NCBI GenBank assembly: GCA_023489135.1
Contig: JAMDCE010000451.1
Coordinates: 1 to 23,407, forward strand
Direction: 5' to 3'
Source of the DNA: Chloroflexota bacterium
GTDB taxonomy: Bacteria > Chloroflexota > Chloroflexia > JAMDCE01
DNA: 23,407 nucleotides
A model generated the notes under the pieces. It was not told the DNA's origin. It was given only the letters and a program-made list of their open reading frames with translations, and did not search any database. Each line of letters starts with the position of its first letter. Positions within the stretch are counted from its first letter, which is position 1. Shown piece after piece: positions 1 through 12,499 of this stretch. The position numbers and the translations under genes were made by a program.

Positions 1-868
1 CGGCGACCCTGGCCATTCCTTGCGGTCCAAGGGCCGCCAGCGATGATTGGTGAGCTTGGGCGGCGTGAGCCTTCCCGACTCGGTATCCGATCAGCCCCTC
101 GGCGGGCACCGAAGCCAGAACCCGTTTGCAGGCCGTTATGCACTTGCCGCAATTCAGGCAGGAGCCGGGGAGATCCTTCCTCCGCGGGTCGATGCGCATG
201 AAGCATACAGCTTTGCATTCGCTGCAGCGCACGCATTCCCTGGCCCGACCGGTAGCAAAGGCCACACGCACCGCCCCCGGGCCGCCAAATAGACGCTGCC
301 ACCAACCGAATACGCACATCCATTCGCAAAAAGTGTGTCGCAGCAGGCCTACATCCACCAGCACCAGGAGGCTGGCCACCGTGATCCCTTTGAGCAGGCT
401 GGTAGTGAATTCGCCGCTCAGCGCTCGCAGGAGAGTCTGAGGAGAGACCAACACGCTTACCAGGGCCAATCCGGCCGAAAGCGCAATCGCCAACGCTAGA
501 ACGCCGATCACAGCGGTGAGCACCGCACGGTACGCAGTCCCGCGCCCTCGGCTATCGACCAGCATCTTCTGAGCGCGGCCGGCGAGCTCGCACAGCGCGG
601 TCTGAGGGCAGAGCCAGCCACAGAAGGCTCGACCGAATACCAGGGACAGGCCGGCCAGAAACACAAATGGGATAGCCAAACCGAGGAGGATGATGCCGGT
701 CTCGTGAGTCCAAATGCGATTCCCGAAGAACCTGAGGCTTTGGGCATCCAGGTCCAGGCCAAATTGACCGCCGAGTAACAGAAACATCACGACCAAGATG
801 CTGGACAATTGAGTGATACGACGCAGCGGAGCTATGTTGTTTTCCACAAAAGACTTGGCCGTGCTCAT
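1..868 (-). CDS. Membrane-bound 4Fe-4S polyferredoxin of NapH/NosR/CcoG type (3' end cut by window edge)
   Basis: Reading frame open from ATG at 868 to the window edge (289 codons, no stop), with an AGAGGA ribosome site just upstream. The visible protein has several hydrophobic segments (about residues 20-36, 57-78, 113-142, 160-176). Cytoplasmic-type motifs are FCGWLCPQT (C83, C87) and FCEWMC (C181, C185), followed by two CxxCxxCxxxC clusters (C212/215/218/222 and C237/240/243/247) that would hold two 4Fe-4S centres. Two CxxxC motifs plus two ferredoxin clusters fit NapH or the C-terminal part of NosR; the CPQT form also occurs in CcoG/RdxA. These families pass electrons across the membrane or serve copper/haem-enzyme maturation. 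It lies downstream of the oxidase-like gene on the same strand, so a role in maturing or feeding that complex is inferred. The family is secure; the subfamily is not. Confidence 0.8.
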   Translation of the reverse strand, partial: MSTAKSFVENNIAPLRRITQLSSILVVMFLLLGGQFGLDLDAQSLRFFGNRIWTHETGIILLGLAIPFVFLAGLSLVFGRAFCGWLCPQTALCELAGRAQKMLVDSRGRGTAYRAVLTAVIGVLALAIALSAGLALVSVLVSPQTLLRALSGEFTTSLLKGITVASLLVLVDVGLLRHTFCEWMCVFGWWQRLFGGPGAVRVAFATGRARECVRCSECKAVCFMRIDPRRKDLPGSCLNCGKCITACKRVLASVPAEGLIGYRVGKAHAAQAHQSSLAALGPQGMARVA

Positions 869-990: not shown

Positions 991-2379
991 TTAGATGCGC
1001 TGTTGACCAATTGCCGCTCGGCCAGATACTCGTTCCTCGGCAGGCTGCCGCACCGCGGCAACTACGTTGTACAGGAAGAGTATCGAAGCGCTCGCGATGG
1101 CGATGCCGCCCAGGATGCGAACCAGGAAGAAGGGCTGAAGAGCCTCGCGCGCGGCGTAGTATCCCTGGCCGGAGGCCAGCAGGCTTCCCTGAATCAACCC
1201 GCCAATGGACAGGGCTCCCCACATCAGCAGCAAGCCGATGGCCGCGAGCCAGAGCTGAGCGTTTGCCGCGCCCTCGCTGCGAATGTCCCTTCCCGTAAGT
1301 CGGGGCAGGAGGAAGTACAGGATACCAAAGGTTCCTATCGAAATCCAGCCGAACAGCGCCAGATGCGCGTGCCCGATCGTCCACTGGCTGCCGTGGGTGA
1401 TGTCGTTGATGGCTCGAATCGATTGTACGGCGCCCTGCAGGCAGTTCAGGAAGTAGAAGCCCATAGTAACGGCCATGAACTTCAGCGGGAGGGTGAACCC
1501 TTTGCGGCTGTTTCGGATGTAGGAATAGACGATGTAGGTCCATATTACGGTCGGGACCAGCATCCCCACGCTCGTCCACTGGCCAACTTCCTTCCAGAAT
1601 TCGCTCACCGGGATCACCTTGTAGAGCAGGTGGTGGAGCACCGAGGGAGGAATAAACACCATAAGCGACCAGAAGTGAATCGGCGTTAGCTTGGTGTTGT
1701 ACGGAGGATCGTCCTCGAGGCCCGTCAGCTTGGGAAGCGCGTAGTACATCAGGCCCATAAGACCGACCATGAACCAGCCGTTAACCTCGTTGTGGGCAAA
1801 GGTCCAGACGGCTATCGCATCCGGCAACCCGCGCAGCGGGATCATCCCGACCAGGTAGTTGACGCCCAGATACAGGATCGAGGCAGTGATGAAAAGGGCG
1901 CTGTAAGGGATCTTCTTCGCCCCGCTGGTCAGAACGGTGCCGAGAATGTTGCCGACGAAGATCAGCCAGATCACCACCACGGCCACGTCGATAGGCAGGA
2001 TAGGCTCCAGATACTCGCGCCCCTCGCTGAAGCCGAGCAACAGCGTGATGACCACCAGGACGATTCCGACCCACTGCAAGACAAAGTGCAGGTTGCCCAG
2101 CGTCTTGCTAAACAGGTCTCGACCACAGATGCGGGGCACGGCGTAGTACATCGCCCCCATTAGAGCCATCGATAGCCAGGCAAAGATGACAGCCTGGAGG
2201 TGCAGGCCTCTAAGGTTCAGGAAGAACATAGAGAAGCCGGCGCCAAAGTTGGTCATCTGCAGAGACATGATGAAGCCCAGCAGGACCACGACAATCAACC
2301 CGAGAGCTGAACCAACAACGAACTTGAGCGCCACGCTATCCGCGCTTCGATACTTAACGTCTTCGGCCAGAGCAGCCAT
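991..2379 (-). CDS. Heme-copper oxidase superfamily subunit I, cbb3/NorB-like
   Basis: Integral membrane catalytic subunit of 462 residues with about 12 helices, the usual length for CcoN or NorB. Visible ligands are H60 (low-spin haem, in LRGLHLQAVIFAW), H196 (CuB/FeB, in FAHNEVNGWF), H249-H250 (second and third CuB/FeB ligands, in SVLHHLLY), and H337/H339 (high- and low-spin haem, in IGHAHLALFGW). In cbb3 oxidases the catalytic cross-linked tyrosine sits six residues before the HH pair. Here that place is I243, and no other tyrosine lies nearby in the helix. E198, two residues after H196, adds an acidic group near the metal site. These changes resemble nitric-oxide reductases more than oxygen reductases. 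It follows the mono-haem cytochrome gene by about 50 bases. Subunit identity is firm; the substrate (NO or O2) is inferred. Confidence 0.88.
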   Translation of the reverse strand: MAALAEDVKYRSADSVALKFVVGSALGLIVVVLLGFIMSLQMTNFGAGFSMFFLNLRGLHLQAVIFAWLSMALMGAMYYAVPRICGRDLFSKTLGNLHFVLQWVGIVLVVITLLLGFSEGREYLEPILPIDVAVVVIWLIFVGNILGTVLTSGAKKIPYSALFITASILYLGVNYLVGMIPLRGLPDAIAVWTFAHNEVNGWFMVGLMGLMYYALPKLTGLEDDPPYNTKLTPIHFWSLMVFIPPSVLHHLLYKVIPVSEFWKEVGQWTSVGMLVPTVIWTYIVYSYIRNSRKGFTLPLKFMAVTMGFYFLNCLQGAVQSIRAINDITHGSQWTIGHAHLALFGWISIGTFGILYFLLPRLTGRDIRSEGAANAQLWLAAIGLLLMWGALSIGGLIQGSLLASGQGYYAAREALQPFFLVRILGGIAIASASILFLYNVVAAVRQPAEERVSGRAAIGQQRI

Positions 2380-2428
2380 CAGTTACCTCCTCGTAAACAT
2401 TGGGGAGAAATCAGCGTAGTAACGGTGT

Positions 2429-2851
2429 TCACTTAAGAGTCTCCAGGTACCTTGCTATCTTATCGATCTCTTCGTCAGACTGCCTGGTGAAGGCGGGCAT
2501 CATCGTGTTCGGGAAAATGGACCTGGGATTCCGCACCAGCTGTTTGATCTGGTCCGCCTTCCAGCGCTTCCCCACGTAAGTGAGGTCCGGCCCGGCCGAT
2601 TGGCCCTGCTGGCCCAGTATGCTGTGGCACTGGGCGCATCCGGCGCTCTGGAACTGGGACCAGCCCTCTTTGGCCACCTGCGTTTCGGCAAACCAGAGGC
2701 CGTTTTCCCCCGAGGTGTAGCCGACGTTGTAGGTGGTCAGATAGGCGACGATCCAGCCCACCATAATCACCGCGGCTACGACGGAAGCCAATAGATAGTT
2801 CTTCACGTGCTCTCCTTGCTCCTTTCGAGTAAACTCCCGCGTGTCGGGCAT
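2429..2851 (-). CDS. Membrane-anchored mono-haem cytochrome c, NorC/CcoO-like
   Basis: Small electron-carrier subunit: one N-terminal transmembrane helix (around LLASVVAAVIMVGWIVAYL), then one cytochrome c domain with haem motif CAQCH followed by SILGQQGQSAGPDL, and an axial methionine in MMPAF. About 140 residues is close to NorC (about 146) and well short of CcoO (about 200). It is first in the cluster and followed by the oxidase-like subunit, the order of norCB. The frame is open to a GTG at 2926, but that start has no convincing ribosome site. ATG at 2851 has AAGGG at good spacing and is used here. A GTG at 2806 behind GGAGCAAGGAGAG is an equally good alternative and would begin right at the membrane anchor. 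The family is firm, the start is not. Confidence 0.82.
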   Translation of the reverse strand: MPDTREFTRKEQGEHVKNYLLASVVAAVIMVGWIVAYLTTYNVGYTSGENGLWFAETQVAKEGWSQFQSAGCAQCHSILGQQGQSAGPDLTYVGKRWKADQIKQLVRNPRSIFPNTMMPAFTRQSDEEIDKIARYLETLK

Positions 2852-2929
2852 CTCCACACCCTTGGTCGCCCGCACGCCGATGAACCTGAATGGGTCGCGG
2901 GGGTCGAATACCGGCCGGTAAAACACCGG

Positions 2930-2962: not shown

Positions 2963-3076
2963 CACCTCCTCTCCCTGCCTTACGCGTACTGTCGAGTCTA
3001 TTTTATGGTTCAACGAGAGGAGAGTATGTGACTATTGTCGCAAAACCAGGCCGTTTTGATCACTCGTCAGTTTGCG

Positions 3077-3106
3077 TTGACACTTCGCCAAGGGGTGGGC
3101 TATAAT
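3077..3106 (+). promoter_or_regulatory. Consensus sigma-70-type promoter for tRNA-Arg
   Basis: TTGACA at 3077-3082 and TATAAT at 3101-3106 with an 18-bp spacer. Predicted transcription starts about 30 bases before the tRNA. Confidence 0.88.
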
Positions 3107-3327: not shown

Positions 3328-3357
3328 TTGACAGTCTGGGAGCCTAATAGCTATAAT
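3328..3357 (+). promoter_or_regulatory. Consensus sigma-70-type promoter for tRNA-Lys
   Basis: TTGACA at 3328-3333, TATAAT at 3352-3357, 18-bp spacer. An ATAGCTAT palindrome at 3347-3354 overlaps the -10 element, probably by chance. Confidence 0.87.
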
Positions 3358-5530: not shown

Positions 5531-7558
5531 ATGAACTCCACAACAGCGGCTCAAACAAGGTTCTTCTTCCCCGCTGCAGTAGTGGCCGTCGTAGCGGCTT
5601 TGCTGGTCCTGGTATCTCTGGTGCTTCAAAGCGAACGGCCTGACCTGGGTCTGAGCACAAACCTGCTTGATGATGGCTCGCGGCGAGTAACCTCGGTACT
5701 GCCCAACAGCTACGCCTGGGATGCCGGCCTGCGAATTGGGGACAGTATACGCATTATCCCGGTACCCGCCCATTCTCCGGCCTTTGCAGCCCTTGAGGTG
5801 CTGAACGCCAATGGTTCCCGCCGCATCCTTCTCATCGAACGCGCATGGCCGAAAGCTATCGACTTTATCCTGATCCTTTTGAGCCTGGAGTTCCTTGCCA
5901 CCGGCTTGCTCGTCTACTTCAAGTCTTTGGATCGCCCGGTCGCCAATCGCTTCCTCTTCCTTTGCGGAGTGATATCGGTAGCACTGGTGACCACTCCCAT
6001 CACGGCTGCCTCAGGCCAGCCCTGGGCCGTGTATCTCAATGGGATTAGCACCAAGGCGGCGGCAGCCGCCTTTGCCTGCTTTTTTTGCAAGGTTCCCGTT
6101 CCACGGTGGGGCATCCCCCAGCGTGTGCTCGTCTGGGCAGTTGTTCCGGTCGGCATCTGGTACACCGTGGCGGTCCTGATAGATACACGCCTCTTTGACC
6201 CCCTGGAGCCAATCAGCCTGGCCTACATTTCGGCGTGCCTGTCAATGGGCGTGCTGGCCCTGTTTTGGCCTTTCTTCTCCGGCGCTTCAAAGCTGGGCCG
6301 GAAACTGTGGCCGGTGACTCTAGGCAGCGGCTTCGCCGCGGTAGTGTTTATCGGCGCCAGCATGCTGCCAAAGATTAGCTTTCAGCACTACCTCATCCGC
6401 CCGGAAATCACCATCACTGCCTGGGCGCTCCTGCCACTCGGCCTGGTATGGGCCATATTTCGCTACCACTTGCTGGGCGTGAATCTCGGCCCCTGGGCCG
6501 TGCTGGAGACCATCTTCGAGACCAGCACGGACTCCATTTTCGTGATCCGTCAAGATAAGCATCTGGCCACGGCCAGCCGATCGGCGCTTGCACTCCTGGG
6601 AATGGCCCGGGTCAAGGACGCTAACAGGCCCTTCGAAGAGATGCTCAAACGCGAAGACATGTCCGGCGTAGCCGGCGAAACCGGAAAACAATCCCTAGTT
6701 GACCGCGTGTTGGGCGGAGAGACCGTTCGGGACGCCGAGGAATGCATTAGGCTTCCCGATGGCACAACCGCCTTTGTCAGCGTGGCGGGGATGCCCGTGC
6801 ACAACGAACAAGGTCAGGTGGATCTGGGGGTTCTGGTTTACCGCGACGTTACGGCTCGAGTCGAAATGCAGCGCCTGCGCGATGAGCATCTCTCCCTGCT
6901 CGCCCACGACCTGCGATCTCCTCTCACCATCCTGAAGGCGCAGGCAGATATCCTCCTGCGCTCGCAGGATGTCATCAACCATCCTAATCCCGAGCTTCAT
7001 CGCGGTATCCAACGACTCGCCGGCAGCACCGCGCAACTCAACGCGCTGCTCACCGAATTGCTGGACGTAACGCGGCTCGAAGCCGGACTGGTCACGCCTC
7101 GCGTGAAGCTGACTGATCTGGCAGTTCTACTGCAGGGCATCGCCAACAGGATGAGCAGCGCCAGTAATCCGGAGCGCATTCAGGTTTCAATCCCCCCAAA
7201 TCTACCACCGGTTCGCGGCGATGGCACCCTGCTGGACCGAGCCTTGACTAACATCGTCGCCAACGCTCTACGGTACACTCAGCCGGACAGCCAGGTCCAT
7301 ATGAAGGCCTATCCCGGACGAGATCGCATCAACATCGACGTGATCGACAACGGACCGGGCATTGCAGAGGAAGACCTTCCACACATTTTCAAACGCCGCT
7401 ACCGGGGCAGAAGCAGCCAGGGCACCGATGGGACGGGGCTGGGCCTCTACATCGCGCACCTCATCGTGACACTCCACGACGGCACCATCACAGCCAAGAG
7501 CACTCCGGGTCGAGGAACCACCTTTCACATCTCCCTGCCCCTGTACACCACCTGTTGA
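5531..7558 (+). CDS. Orphan membrane sensor histidine kinase with PDZ-like and PAS domains
   Basis: 675-residue two-component sensor. Order of parts: one N-terminal membrane helix (12-33); an extracytoplasmic PDZ-like segment (about 40-103, with VTSVLPNSYAWDAGLRIGD); a multi-helix membrane region (about 109-315); a PAS domain (about 323-445); HisKA with the phospho-acceptor H459 in LLAHDLRSP; and an ATPase domain with N box NIVANALRYT (574-583), G1 box DNGPGI (606-611), F box near 620 and G2 box GTGLGLY (634-640). All catalytic boxes are intact. A PDZ-like loop before a bundle of helices recalls ComP-type kinases. No response regulator lies on either side, so its partner is unknown. It ends 11 bases from the convergent lipid-kinase gene. 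Confidence 0.9.
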   Translation: MNSTTAAQTRFFFPAAVVAVVAALLVLVSLVLQSERPDLGLSTNLLDDGSRRVTSVLPNSYAWDAGLRIGDSIRIIPVPAHSPAFAALEVLNANGSRRILLIERAWPKAIDFILILLSLEFLATGLLVYFKSLDRPVANRFLFLCGVISVALVTTPITAASGQPWAVYLNGISTKAAAAAFACFFCKVPVPRWGIPQRVLVWAVVPVGIWYTVAVLIDTRLFDPLEPISLAYISACLSMGVLALFWPFFSGASKLGRKLWPVTLGSGFAAVVFIGASMLPKISFQHYLIRPEITITAWALLPLGLVWAIFRYHLLGVNLGPWAVLETIFETSTDSIFVIRQDKHLATASRSALALLGMARVKDANRPFEEMLKREDMSGVAGETGKQSLVDRVLGGETVRDAEECIRLPDGTTAFVSVAGMPVHNEQGQVDLGVLVYRDVTARVEMQRLRDEHLSLLAHDLRSPLTILKAQADILLRSQDVINHPNPELHRGIQRLAGSTAQLNALLTELLDVTRLEAGLVTPRVKLTDLAVLLQGIANRMSSASNPERIQVSIPPNLPPVRGDGTLLDRALTNIVANALRYTQPDSQVHMKAYPGRDRINIDVIDNGPGIAEEDLPHIFKRRYRGRSSQGTDGTGLGLYIAHLIVTLHDGTITAKSTPGRGTTFHISLPLYTTC

Positions 7559-7569
7559 AGTCCCAGCTC

Positions 7570-8154
7570 TCACAGCGCCAGAGCCATTACCACGGCCACG
7601 ACGATCGGAATCGTGAGGTTATCATCCAGCCGCACAGGCACCAATTCGGCAAGAGCTCCGGCCGCCGCCCCGAGGGCCACCGCCAACCAGTTGAGCCGCA
7701 TTCCGGCCAGCAGAAGGATGAGCCCCACGATAAGGACCGAGGCAAAGAACGCACCCGTCCCCTCCAGGCTCTTCTCGCCCAGCCTTCGTCGTCCGAAGCG
7801 CTCTCCCACGCTCGCGGCCGCCGGGTCTCCCACCGCCGCGTAGAAGAGCGCGGCGATCGCGACGTCCCTCGGGAAGAAAAGAAACACCAGGAACGCCGCG
7901 ACCAGGAAGTAGGTCGAGCCGATAGGCCTGGTCGCCTCCCGCTCTTTGAAGGCGGTGGAAGCCCGGGAGAAGAAGCCCATCAGACTTGCATTCAAGGAGG
8001 GCAGCAAAATCCGAAGAGACTCGATTGTGACGAAGATGGCCGCCAGGCCCCCCAGGAAAAGCAGCAGCCACTCCCTGGGGAGCACAAACCCCAGCAGCGG
8101 TGGGATGCTGCCCGCCAAGACGTGGAATAGACGGCGCGCGACCTTGCCCTTCAT
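7570..8154 (-). CDS. DGK1/SEC59/VTE5-type lipid kinase or CTP-transferase-like membrane protein
   Basis: Polytopic membrane protein of about 194 residues. The hallmark of the CTP-dependent diacylglycerol/dolichol/phytol kinase family is visible: GDPAAASVGERFGRRRLGEKSLEG, an acidic nucleotide-metal site followed by basic residues, and RRLFHVLAG at the N-terminus. The family phosphorylates a lipid alcohol with CTP or UTP; the substrate here cannot be read from sequence. ATG at 8154 follows GGAAAG and is preferred. A TTG at 8202 that overlaps the stop of the upstream gene would add 16 residues. Together with the PlsY-like gene it forms a two-gene operon in phospholipid or prenyl-alcohol metabolism. 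Confidence 0.78.
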   Translation of the reverse strand: MKGKVARRLFHVLAGSIPPLLGFVLPREWLLLFLGGLAAIFVTIESLRILLPSLNASLMGFFSRASTAFKEREATRPIGSTYFLVAAFLVFLFFPRDVAIAALFYAAVGDPAAASVGERFGRRRLGEKSLEGTGAFFASVLIVGLILLLAGMRLNWLAVALGAAAGALAELVPVRLDDNLTIPIVVAVVMALAL

Positions 8155-9823: not shown

Positions 9824-10082
9824 ATTGTGCGATTCCAACAATAACTCGGCCTTCGCCCACCATCAATCTATATGCGCCTTCCCTTGAACCTCGGCGCTCA
9901 CCGCACCAGATACGGCCCCTCGGTGACCTCTCGCGTCTGGAATTCCCTACCGCGCCCCTGGACCAATTTGCGCTAAATGTGACTTTTGTCGCGGTGAACT
10001 GCCCCGCGGTTGCACTACACTAACACTAACACAAGAGGAACCACGAATCCGTAGAGACGGACACGAAAGCAGGAGATTGGAC
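9824..10082. other. Intergenic region before the DUF59 operon
   Basis: 259 bases with no credible gene. It should contain the promoter of the operon starting at 10083, but no good -35/-10 pair is visible. The only local structures are a CGCGG/CCGCG 5-bp stem near 9990-10010 and an AGGAG ribosome site at 10071-10075. An activator-dependent promoter would be consistent, but that is inference. Confidence 0.4.
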
Positions 10083-10367
10083 ATGGCAGCGATAAGCGAA
10101 CAGCAGGTCATCGATAAGCTACGGCAAGTTATGGACCCCCATACGGGGAGCAACGTTTACGATATGGGGCTCATCAAGGATCTGGTGGTCGAACCAGACC
10201 ATCTTTCATTGACATTTGAGCTCACGAGCAACTTCTGCCCGATTGGAATGCAGCTGGGGCTCGCCCTGAAGCGCAAGCTTCGCGAGCTGCCGATGAAGAA
10301 CATCGACGTCAAGATCGCCAACTACTTACGGGCAGCAGAGCTGGAAAGCATGCTGGCAGGCATCTAA
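10083..10367 (+). CDS. DUF59/MIP18-family metal-sulfur cluster assembly factor (SufT/PaaD-like)
   Basis: 94-residue stand-alone DUF59 protein. Family features are the opening helix (VIDKLRQVMDPHTGSNVYDMGLI), the central strand region, and the conserved cysteine C52 in TSNFCPIGMQLG, which in relatives helps carry or insert Fe-S clusters. ATG at 10083 sits seven bases after AGGAG; a TTG six bases upstream is rejected. It opens a three-gene operon: the membrane protein gene starts 12 bases after its stop. In this setting it may deliver or repair a metal centre for the other two products. DUF59, DUF1858 and DUF2249 proteins recur next to nitric-oxide-related genes, which points to that role without proving it. 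Confidence 0.85.
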   Translation: MAAISEQQVIDKLRQVMDPHTGSNVYDMGLIKDLVVEPDHLSLTFELTSNFCPIGMQLGLALKRKLRELPMKNIDVKIANYLRAAELESMLAGI

Positions 10368-10379
10368 GGAGGTAGCCGT

Positions 10380-11651
10380 ATGGAGATTGTACCCACTACC
10401 CTGGTGCGCATCAGCCGCTACTACATGGTCGCGGCCATCGCGTACCTCCTGCTGACCCTCGCCATCGGAGTCTATAGGGTACTGGTACCTGTTTCCAACG
10501 ATCTGGTTCACTGGGCCCCGGCCGTGTTAGGCTGGGTGAGCTTCCCGATCATGGGCGCTTACTACCAGTTCTTCCCCACGCTTCAGGGCCGAGACCTGCG
10601 CTGGGACAGCCTGACCATACCCCAGTTCGTGCTGATGAACCTGGGCGTCCTCGGCCTGATGGGAGCCGCTTTGGCCGGGAATGCGGCCTCATTGTCGATC
10701 AGCGCGGCCATTTACACCGTCGGGGCGCTGCTTTTTGCAGCCATAATTATCCTGGCAAACGTGGATTTCACCAAGATAGGCCTGACGTTGCGCTTCTACC
10801 TGGCATCGTTAGCCTATTTCGTCGTCGCCATCCTGCTTTTCTTCGCCCAGACGGTTGGCATCGCCCCTTCCTGGGCCGACCGGCCTCTGATGCTCCACGT
10901 CCTGGTCTTTGGCTGGGCCATCGTGGCGATAATGGGAGCCGAATACAGCATGGTTCCGATGCTTCAGCTGAAGAAGCTGCGCCATCCCCGGCTGGCCGAC
11001 GCCCAGTTTTACTTTGTCAATGCCGGCTTCTGGGGACTGGCGGCTTCGATAGCTTTTGGCACCTCCTCATTGCTGGTCGCGGCGTTTGGCGCCATCGTTC
11101 TAGCCGCCATCCTGACCTTCGCCTATATCATCGCGGCCAGTTTGCGGCACGGGCCGTCGCGACTGCCGCACATGGACATATCCGTCAAGTACTTCCTGGT
11201 GGGCATCGCCTACCTGGTCGCCACGTCTATCGTCGGCATCTTCATCGGCGCCTTTGGCTGGCGCAGCGCTATACCCATACACGTGCATCTGGGTCTGATC
11301 GGCGCGGTGACGATGACCATCGTCGGGGCTATGTACCACGTCGTTCCGTTCGTAGTCTGGTGGGAGGTGTACGCCCCCAGGTTAGGCTACGAAGACGTGC
11401 CGCTTCTTAAGCAGCTATTCAACGAGCGCTGCGCCTTGCTCCAGCTCTACGGTCTGAACGCCGGACTGCTTCTCATGATCGCCGGATTTACTCTGAGAAC
11501 CAATATCCCGCTGGCGCTCGGGGGCGCGATCCTGTTGGTTACTGCTCTGGCTTTCGCCTGGGCGATGGTGAAGGTGGTCGGTCACAGGCGGAATCTGCGC
11601 AAACCGATCGGACGGCAAACGAAAGAGAAGACTAGTGAGGGAACATTATGA
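10380..11651 (+). CDS. Heme-copper-oxidase-subunit-I-like / NnrS-like 12-helix membrane protein without CuB site
   Basis: 423 residues, about 12 membrane helices. Three stretches repeat the pattern of oxidase subunit I: H44 with GAYYQFFP (59-66), H173 with GAEYSMVP (186-193), and H301/H303 with GAMYHVVP (316-323). The last stretch matches the haem-ligand helix (HVHLGLIG). There is no HH pair for CuB and no HxxxE or HNxV motif, so it probably binds haem but lacks a full binuclear centre. NnrS-type and other cbb3-like orphans are the nearest families. The ribosome site AGGAGGT is six bases from the ATG. Its stop overlaps the next start (ATGA), implying translational coupling. A role in haem-based sensing, electron transfer or NO handling is inferred. 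Confidence 0.75.
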   Translation: MEIVPTTLVRISRYYMVAAIAYLLLTLAIGVYRVLVPVSNDLVHWAPAVLGWVSFPIMGAYYQFFPTLQGRDLRWDSLTIPQFVLMNLGVLGLMGAALAGNAASLSISAAIYTVGALLFAAIIILANVDFTKIGLTLRFYLASLAYFVVAILLFFAQTVGIAPSWADRPLMLHVLVFGWAIVAIMGAEYSMVPMLQLKKLRHPRLADAQFYFVNAGFWGLAASIAFGTSSLLVAAFGAIVLAAILTFAYIIAASLRHGPSRLPHMDISVKYFLVGIAYLVATSIVGIFIGAFGWRSAIPIHVHLGLIGAVTMTIVGAMYHVVPFVVWWEVYAPRLGYEDVPLLKQLFNERCALLQLYGLNAGLLLMIAGFTLRTNIPLALGGAILLVTALAFAWAMVKVVGHRRNLRKPIGRQTKEKTSEGTL

Positions 11652-12499
11652 GCGCGACCGGAACAACCACCGCAAGACCAATAACCATTAACACCAAGAT
11701 CGGCGAGGCCCTGAAGGAGCACCCGGAGCTGCTGGATGTGCTCCTGCGCCAGAGCCCACACTTCTCGCGGCTGAAGAACCCCATCTTGCGCCGCATCCAC
11801 GGCCGGCTCGTAACAGTGGGACAGGCGGCAGCAGTGGCTGGGATTGACCCGGCGGCGCTGGTGCGGAAGCTCAACGCCGCGATCGGCCAGGATCTGCCGG
11901 AAGAGACGCAGTTCACCCTGCCGTCGATGGCCGGCACGCCTGAGCCGGCCTGGATTGCCGGCGCCGGGATCGCTATCTCCCTCGACGTCCGCGAAGATCA
12001 GCGCAACCACGCCGACCCGTTCGCGCGAATAATGGCCGCGATAGCGCAAGTTCGCGACGGAGAAATCTTCTACTTGAGAAACACCTTCGAGCCTCTGCCG
12101 CTCTATGACGTGCTGGGGAAGCGAGGCTTCGTCTCGTGGGCCCGAAAGCTTTCCTCGGATGATTGGGAGATTTTCTTCCTCAAGACAGGCTCGGTGGAGA
12201 AGGCCGATGGCCCGAGACAAGCCGCAGCGGCCACGAAACGGGCAACCCGGGAAGACGGCGAAGCCGAGATGAACGATCCTACGGCCAGCGTAACCATCGA
12301 CGTCGCAGACCTCACGCCGCCGCAGCCGATGATGAAGATACTTGATGCTCTGGCCCTTCTCAAGCCCGGCGAAACCCTGCTGGTCCATCACAAGCGGCGT
12401 CCCGCTTACCTGTATCCCAAGCTCGCCGAGCTCGGTTACACCCACCAAACCATCGAGCACGGCCCCGATGACGTGGACATATACATCAGGAAAAAGTAG
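11648..12499 (+). CDS. DUF1858-DUF2249-DUF2249 protein
   Basis: 283-residue soluble protein made of three small domains: DUF1858 (about 12-80, ending RRIHGRLVTVGQAAAVAGID), a first DUF2249 (about 109-179, with DPFARIMAAIAQVRDGEIFY) and a second DUF2249 (about 215-282, with PMMKILDALALLKPGETLLV). Between them is a charged linker (185-212). These domains occur with hemerythrins, ScdA/RIC repair proteins and NO-respiration genes, and are thought to belong to NO stress or metal-centre repair. The exact chemistry is unknown. It overlaps the upstream gene by four bases. I see no cysteine at all in the protein, so Fe-S binding by thiolates is unlikely and histidines would have to serve. Confidence 0.82.
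   Translation: MSATGTTTARPITINTKIGEALKEHPELLDVLLRQSPHFSRLKNPILRRIHGRLVTVGQAAAVAGIDPAALVRKLNAAIGQDLPEETQFTLPSMAGTPEPAWIAGAGIAISLDVREDQRNHADPFARIMAAIAQVRDGEIFYLRNTFEPLPLYDVLGKRGFVSWARKLSSDDWEIFFLKTGSVEKADGPRQAAAATKRATREDGEAEMNDPTASVTIDVADLTPPQPMMKILDALALLKPGETLLVHHKRRPAYLYPKLAELGYTHQTIEHGPDDVDIYIRKK

Follow-up and report, generated by a model that had tools for sequence, protein, structure and literature searches.

The question raised by contig JAMDCE010000451.1 of a Chloroflexota bacterium (assembly GCA_023489135.1; all 23,407 nucleotides, hereafter the window) is what is made by a pair of adjacent genes near its start: a small cytochrome c gene and, directly after it, a gene for subunit I of a haem-copper enzyme. 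The frame of subunit I is that of the C-family (cbb3) oxygen reductases; the order of the genes is that of norC and norB, which encode the nitric-oxide reductase (NOR) known as cNOR. A preliminary description of the locus had proposed that the pair reduces nitric oxide (NO) and derives from an oxygen reductase; our analysis confirms its observation and partly supports its interpretation. Sequence comparison leads us to regard the pair as probably a cytochrome-c-dependent NO reductase, one that would form a third C-type lineage with an asparagine active site. The features on which this argument depends are as follows.

991..2379, minus strand: subunit I (NorB-like), 462 amino acids, with ligands H60, H196, H249, H250, H337 and H339
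1651..1653, minus strand: codon of I243, the site of the cross-linked tyrosine in C-family oxidases
1780..1794, minus strand: codons of H196 (1792–1794), E198 (1786–1788, variable) and N200 (1780–1782, invariant, four residues after H196)
2429..2851, minus strand: small subunit (NorC/FixO-like), 140 amino acids, with one hydrophobic helix, one CxxCH and an invariant methionine

Active-site residues of subunit I

The product of 991–2379 matches PF00115 (COX1) at 220.9 bits, and its six haem and metal histidines, set on a 12-helix COX1 frame, place it in the haem-copper superfamily. A protein search in which 7999 candidates were scored – the figures given here come from the 120 of 197 matches listed – returned 33 rows of a single clade, the window's own among them, with identities down to 45%; the next match stands at about 31%. 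Thirty-one of these rows, again including the window, were aligned, two short fragments being excluded. H60, H196, H249, H250, H337 and H339 are invariant in all 31, exactly as the preliminary description had numbered them, and its account of a norCB-like pair on a C-family frame was sound in gene order and coordinates, given the PF00115 match and a small subunit with one helix and one CxxCH.

Departure from the C-family oxidases is seen in helix VII. The position of their tyrosine had been assigned to I243, correctly: all 31 aligned clade sequences have isoleucine there. A wider alignment had 83 rows, two of which (L078 and L116, described below) were removed before counting. Here the position is isoleucine in 25/25 clade rows and in the 3 cNOR rows, and tyrosine in 46/46 C-family rows; in 7 rows of the qNOR type it is valine or isoleucine, aligned across a one-residue gap beside the HH pair. 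Because isoleucine is constant in the clade (31/31) and tyrosine is constant in its C-family relatives (46/46), loss of the tyrosine reflects neither chance nor sequencing error.

Judged by the alignment, the residue that matters is N200, which lines up with the glutamate of cNOR and qNOR. It lies four residues after H196 (the H+4 site), without gaps, and is asparagine in every one of the 31 aligned clade sequences. The wider alignment has asparagine here in 25/25 clade rows, glycine (40) or alanine (6) in the 46 C-family rows, and glutamate in 3/3 cNOR and 7/7 qNOR-type rows. In the cNOR motif H-L-W-V-E, Glu211 follows its own metal histidine, which we take to be His207, at the same H+4 spacing as N200 follows H196. 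Glu211 is a ligand of FeB, the non-haem iron of cNOR (PMC10256718), and Glu, Gln, Asp or Asn at this site has been described as a mark of NORs (PMC3475470); in the characterised qCuANOR (now bNOR) of Bacillus azotoformans it is asparagine that replaces tyrosine at the H+4 site (PMC3475470). Open frames taken from genomes can be sorted by the same two positions: among 81 from a genome scan, 77 combine tyrosine with glycine or alanine, 3 combine asparagine with isoleucine and 1 (L078) is odd; among 39 from a genome search the corresponding numbers are 33, 5 and 1 (L116), some genes being common to both sets.

The preliminary description overlooked N200 and proposed instead that E198 is a newly gained catalytic acid. 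Position 198 varies across the clade (Glu in 17, Gln in 8 and Ala in 6 of 31), so that E198 is not diagnostic, and 11 of the 46 ordinary C-family rows have alanine there too; with Gln or Ala in 14 of 31 clade sequences, E198 was ruled out as the catalytic acid. A different tyrosine next to H196, named in that description as a finding that would count against it, is absent from the alignment.

These residues suggest a path for the reaction. The mono-haem cytochrome c subunit would take up the electrons, which would pass, if roles assigned by homology hold, to a low-spin haem bound by H60 and H339, and from there to a high-spin haem ligated by H337, next to which H196, H249 and H250 would bind a non-haem metal. 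N200 would occupy the place of the FeB-binding glutamate of cNOR, I243 would stand at the site of the oxidase tyrosine used in O2 reduction, and two NO would be joined to give N2O and water. The simplest account is that the asparagine acts as a fourth ligand or as a proton relay, and that the enzyme may work alongside qNOR in denitrifying Bacilli and as part of an NO response in Chloroflexota. NO reduction, the function favoured from the outset, seems to us to have been rightly proposed as the likely one.

Phylogenetic position and distribution

The clade is monophyletic and falls outside both the sampled tyrosine-bearing C-family and cNOR/qNOR. In a tree of 63 rows the clade and the tyrosine-bearing C-family form separate groups with support of 97/100 and 98/96, and the same split is recovered (96/93 and 99/95) when the active-site columns of helices VI and VII and the qNOR rows are left out. 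Approximately unbiased tests of four nestings of the clade with parts of the C-family gave p values of 0.040, 0.045, 0.056 and 0.014; on these sequences nesting is disfavoured and weakly rejected, one of the four placements surviving at 0.05. When nine A/B-family rows serve as outgroup, the clade stands apart from those rows, and its join with the C-family has a support of 48, too low to fix the order of cNOR plus qNOR, clade and C-family. Four trees keep the clade apart from cNOR, with only three cNOR rows in them and a long branch to cNOR/qNOR; in the unrooted tree it lies between cNOR/qNOR and cbb3. We read these results as pointing to a separate deep lineage, either sister to cbb3 or closer to the cNOR/qNOR fork. 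Placement within the cbb3 rows, the other finding that was to count against the preliminary description, did not occur; its derivation of the pair from a cbb3 oxygen reductase finds no support in the trees, which set the clade apart from the sampled tyrosine-bearing C-family although they reject nested placements only weakly.

A distribution scan covered 398 Bacilli and 400 Chloroflexota at E 1e-60 or better, with up to four candidates scored per genome. Matches were found in 29 of the Bacilli and 9 of the Chloroflexota, of which 4 and 1, respectively, hold the clade by motif; the other matching genomes hold tyrosine-bearing relatives or L116. Six clade genomes were available for comparison: five Bacilli, four of them from the sample of 398, and one Chloroflexota (G001). 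Where the sources name the clade proteins, the name is cbb3-type oxidase subunit I; genomes carrying them would therefore count as O2 respirers, with a possible source of N2O overlooked.

Several relatives outside the clade are unusual in their own right. L116 (1356–2846), a C-family protein of Chloroflexota, has asparagine at H+4, a short helix VII and serine in place of the tyrosine (at –6), which is possibly a second, independent loss or else an assembly error. L078 (9893–11467), a CcoN-like protein of Thiotrichales, has serine for the tyrosine and asparagine for the first metal histidine of helix VII; it is possibly an inactive or re-purposed oxidase. At L057, L032 and L077, which come from Methanolobus, Methanoperedenaceae archaea and one Planctomycetota genome, C-family subunit I is fused with FixO and cytochrome c domains in a single frame of 900–955 amino acids.

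The cassette and its nitric-oxide setting

The CxxCH of the small subunit is invariant in its alignment, and the invariant methionine is likely to be a haem ligand. Besides the window's own there are 11 homologues, 9 of 124–143 amino acids, one of 111 and one of 246; because of these lengths translation probably starts at ATG 2851 rather than at GTG 2926, and while the limits of subunit I stand, the span of 991–2926 first given for the pair is likely to be too long at its small-subunit end. Like that of cNOR, the subunit is a membrane-anchored, mono-haem protein of the NorC type, with a match to CcoO nearly as good (E 9.8e-10, as against 1.3e-10 for cNOR NorC). In the window and in the stretches L128, L123, L124, L126 and L127, subunit I is accompanied by one mono-haem gene only: a CcoO plus CcoP pair and further CxxCH genes are absent from these cassette stretches, the one other CxxCH string in the window lying in a frame 13 kb off. 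For six contigs the linkage of cytochrome c and subunit I was deduced from the equal sizes of the matched contigs.

Two further features complete the cassette.

2..868, minus strand: CcoG/NapH-like membrane polyferredoxin (TIGR02745, Fer4_5, Fer4_18), third gene of the cassette, truncated by the contig start
944..980, no strand: inverted repeat of two perfect 16-base arms around a 5-base loop, lying between the norB-like and ccoG-like genes

The product of 2–868 carries Fer4_5 and Fer4_18 domains and matches TIGR02745 at 91.6 bits, below the cut-off of 316.7. A CcoG-like homologue adjoins the pair in Chloroflexota L128 and in four Bacilli: L123 (P0021, Microaerobacter geothermalis), L124 (P0020, Effusibacillus lacus), L126 (Calidifontibacillus erzurumensis) and L127. 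The order is c, B, ccoG in the window and L128, and ccoG, c, B in the four Bacilli. In L125 (genome G059) a cytochrome c gene and a short subunit I have no CcoG-like neighbour within the stretch read; the subunit I frame (7019–7849) ends early after about 264 matched residues, and the copy on contig C84 of genome G002 has a stop within the match. The inverted repeat is possibly an attenuator or a processing site. Beside the Bacilli cassettes of L126 (4659–7652) and L127 (10526–13518) are three-gene sets in which the one tested gene is of the FtsX/MacB type and the remaining genes resemble, by eye, parts of an ABC exporter.

The third gene bears on the identity of the second metal. CcoG is a cupric reductase and the copper-assembly factor of cbb3 (PMC8267372); NorQD is required for FeB loading in cNOR and dispensable for qNOR (PMC9976466). 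The NorQ family (PF08406) was matched in one of the six clade genomes, there on a different contig, and neither NorQ nor NorD was recognised by eye beside the cassette, the profile search being aimed at the NorQ family and not at NorD itself. A CcoG-like gene in the cassette and the missing NorQ-family match in five of six genomes together offer hints that the metal may be copper rather than iron. We advance only tentatively, as a possibility short of an expectation, the fuller scheme in which a third C-type NOR lineage at or near the fork of cNOR/qNOR and cbb3 would combine a haem b3–CuB centre, asparagine in the fourth position and CcoG-like maturation replacing NorQD.

In one relative the genes around the cassette point to NO. 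In this Chloroflexota genome, G001, the cassette shares a strand with an ScdA_N protein, an NnrS/COX1/DUF1858 protein and a hemerythrin. Among the norCB operons taken as yardsticks, L121 adjoins NnrS, DUF1858 and a Crp/Fnr regulator, L129 has ytfE beside it and L130 has DUF2249, so that the DUF1858 and DUF2249 families each adjoin one fetched norCBQD operon. Within the window the relevant features are these.

3027..3042, plus strand: CRP/FNR-type palindrome TGTGACTATTGTCGCA, 176–191 bases before the small-subunit ATG
9978..9993, plus strand: second copy of the palindrome, with an exact 15-base core TGTGACTNTTGTCGC, 84 bases ahead of the gene at 10077
10077..10367, plus strand: MIP18/PaaD-like Fe-S assembly protein with a TTG start (PF01883, 50.7 bits), first gene after the second palindrome
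10380..11651, plus strand: membrane protein with a weak COX1 match (PF00115, 34.6 bits; cut-off 34.8)
11648..12499, plus strand: DUF1858 plus DUF2249 protein, matching the DUF1858 part of the L128 gene

The operon at 9978–12499 looks like an NO-response unit, and the exact sharing of the operator-like core TGTGACTNTTGTCGC by this operon and the cassette speaks for an NO role of the pair. The product of 10380–11651 is, to go by domain type, possibly the counterpart of the NnrS/COX1-like gene by the L128 cassette; a direct match between the two was not found. The palindrome at 3027–3042 could serve either side: it lies between divergent genes, with tRNA-Arg opposite, and is also 35 bases ahead of a promoter-like match for that plus-strand tRNA gene. 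Two 12/12 sigma-70 promoter matches, at 3077–3106 and 3328–3357 on the plus strand, stand just before tRNA-Arg (3145) and tRNA-Lys (3382).

Across the loci, TGTGAN6TCACA with 0–2 mismatches occurs in 5 of 7 upstream regions of first genes (combined p 1.9e-5; none in L001 and L125). Ahead of the Bacilli cassettes it is present at L123, L124 and L126 (0–1 mismatch), weak at L127 and absent at L125. The sole one-mismatch site in the window is the one at the cassette. The loci also have other sites of one mismatch or none, for totals of 3 each in L124 and L125 and 2 each in L126, L127 and L128. In G001 a similar palindrome precedes the run of NO genes, and the exact form TGTGACN4GTCGCA occurs once, at that point; its reversed control is found 3 times, which leaves only the place as telling. 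For the FNR/DNR consensus TTGATN4ATCAA, the 8 upstream stretches examined showed no signal (lowest p about 0.05).

Genes of denitrification accompany the clade in Bacilli. Four of the six clade genomes have NosZ (TIGR04246) above cut-off – 4 of the 5 Bacilli and 0 of 1 Chloroflexota – and it is found at E 1e-100 in 21 of the 398 sampled Bacilli. Three of the four sampled clade Bacilli pass (Fisher p 4.9e-4), or four of four if the split gene of G016 is counted (p 7.1e-6), a split in the assembly that agrees with its genome paper (PMC5729459). NirK matches fall below cut-off in all six clade genomes, nirK being named in E. lacus by the same paper (PMC5729459), and cytochrome-d1 matches above 200 bits, a NirS-like level, occur in G003 and G026. 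A qNOR is present in five of the six, four by a row in the qNOR tree group and that of G059 by length, start and helix-VII motif; in G059 the clade gene lies 3.4 kb from it, with another haem-copper gene in between.

Several observations weigh against the reading of the pair as an NO reductase. The second-sphere glutamate at H+8 (2/3 cNOR and 7/7 qNOR-type rows) is methionine in the clade. The tyrosine is not a strict switch, because the cbb3 of P. stutzeri is reported to reduce NO despite having it (cited in PMC12816887). Of 25 Bacilli whose C-family proteins are all tyrosine-bearing, 8 have NosZ as well (the difference has p 0.021, and the genomes compared are not independent), and neither NosZ nor NirK exceeds its cut-off in the Chloroflexota G001. 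With qNOR in five of six clade genomes, the clade enzyme is not their only NOR, and two of the five Bacilli copies (L125/G059 and G002) look broken as assembled. The core TGTGACTNTTGTCGC occurs exactly twice in the window – ahead of the cassette and ahead of the MIP18, COX1-like and DUF1858–DUF2249 operon – and 0 times in 100 shuffles, a control that is too kind because the core was defined after both sites had been seen; TGTGAN6TCACA with up to two mismatches is not enriched in the window as a whole (4 sites, 5.9 expected).

The alternative that survives best is that the pair is still an O2 reductase, one without the cross-linked tyrosine and perhaps slow or adapted to very low O2, whose CuB is loaded by the CcoG-like partner. 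CcoN of cbb3 is its nearest relative in fold and sequence, a partner like the copper-assembly factor of cbb3 (PMC8267372) is at hand, and the small subunit is about as good a match to CcoO as to NorC; we nonetheless think it unlikely, given tyrosine in 46/46 C-family rows and 0 in the clade, the lack of a second haem-c gene at the cassette loci and the NO genes around the cassette in G001. Nor do we favour an NO-binding sensor or sink of an NO-stress regulon that would have no NOR turnover: six redox ligands and the CxxCH of the donor are invariant in the alignments, which makes such a role quite unlikely despite the qNOR in five of six clade genomes and neighbours of NO-damage type in G001.

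Comparison with known systems

That the enzyme is a divergent NorB, and nothing more, is very unlikely. Asparagine replaces glutamate at H+4, a NorQ-family match is missing in five of six genomes, and the clade is apart from cNOR in four trees (with only three cNOR rows); membership of cNOR was rejected on the strength of N200 (31/31, as against Glu in 3/3 cNOR rows), the absence of NorQ-family neighbours and the separation in trees. NO dismutases, which convert 2 NO to N2 and O2, are relatives of qNOR, and although the active site is altered relative to cNOR/qNOR and the clade co-occurs with other NORs, a dismutase is barely credible for proteins that lie outside the qNOR group and keep an electron-donor cytochrome.

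The NORs related to the C-family are cNOR and qNOR, and those related to the B-family are bNOR, eNOR, sNOR, gNOR and nNOR (PMC11388526). As tested here, the clade fits none of these classes. We found no description of the clade as a NOR in the open-licence literature searched, which did not include the 2024 NOR survey (DOI 10.1073/pnas.2316422121; 67 NOR and 865 other haem-copper oxidase sequences by the count in PMC12569097), and it may sit among the other haem-copper oxidases of that survey. Bacillota had earlier been screened for cNOR, qNOR, bNOR and sNOR (PMC11388526); the clade is present in this phylum, in Calidifontibacillus erzurumensis, Effusibacillus lacus and Microaerobacter geothermalis, and cultured hosts exist for functional work. 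That the unrooted tree sets the clade between cNOR/qNOR and cbb3 bears on the long dispute over whether reduction of NO or of O2 came first. Should the fuller scheme above hold, the clade would represent a surviving link between the respiration of nitric oxide and that of oxygen, and the asparagine active site of the B-family NORs would have arisen in it convergently.

Set beside cbb3 (CcoN), the clade lacks the helix-VII tyrosine, has asparagine at H+4, has one mono-haem partner in place of CcoO plus CcoP, and falls outside the sampled tyrosine-bearing group; I243, the absent CcoO plus CcoP and the separation in trees led to its rejection as a C-family oxygen reductase. With qNOR (NorZ) it shares the missing tyrosine and five of six genomes, but it has no fused N-terminal domain, carries asparagine for glutamate and is apart in trees; 462 amino acids and a separate cytochrome gene, as against a single subunit of about 760, ruled out qNOR. 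In common with cNOR (NorCB) it has the norC–norB order, a mono-haem donor, an aliphatic residue at the tyrosine site and a polar one at H+4; it differs in having asparagine for the FeB-binding glutamate and methionine for the glutamate at H+8, in having no NorQD seen adjacent and in its place in trees. With bNOR and sNOR it shares the asparagine at H+4, which in those enzymes replaces a tyrosine (PMC3475470; for sNOR, Table A4 of PMC8756737), but those enzymes are related to the B-family and have a CuA or cupredoxin subunit (PMC3475470, PMC8756737). The B-family NORs (bNOR, sNOR, gNOR and nNOR) were ruled out by the cytochrome c partner and by separation from the nine A/B-family rows: the clade sets its asparagine on a C-family frame and pairs it with cytochrome c.
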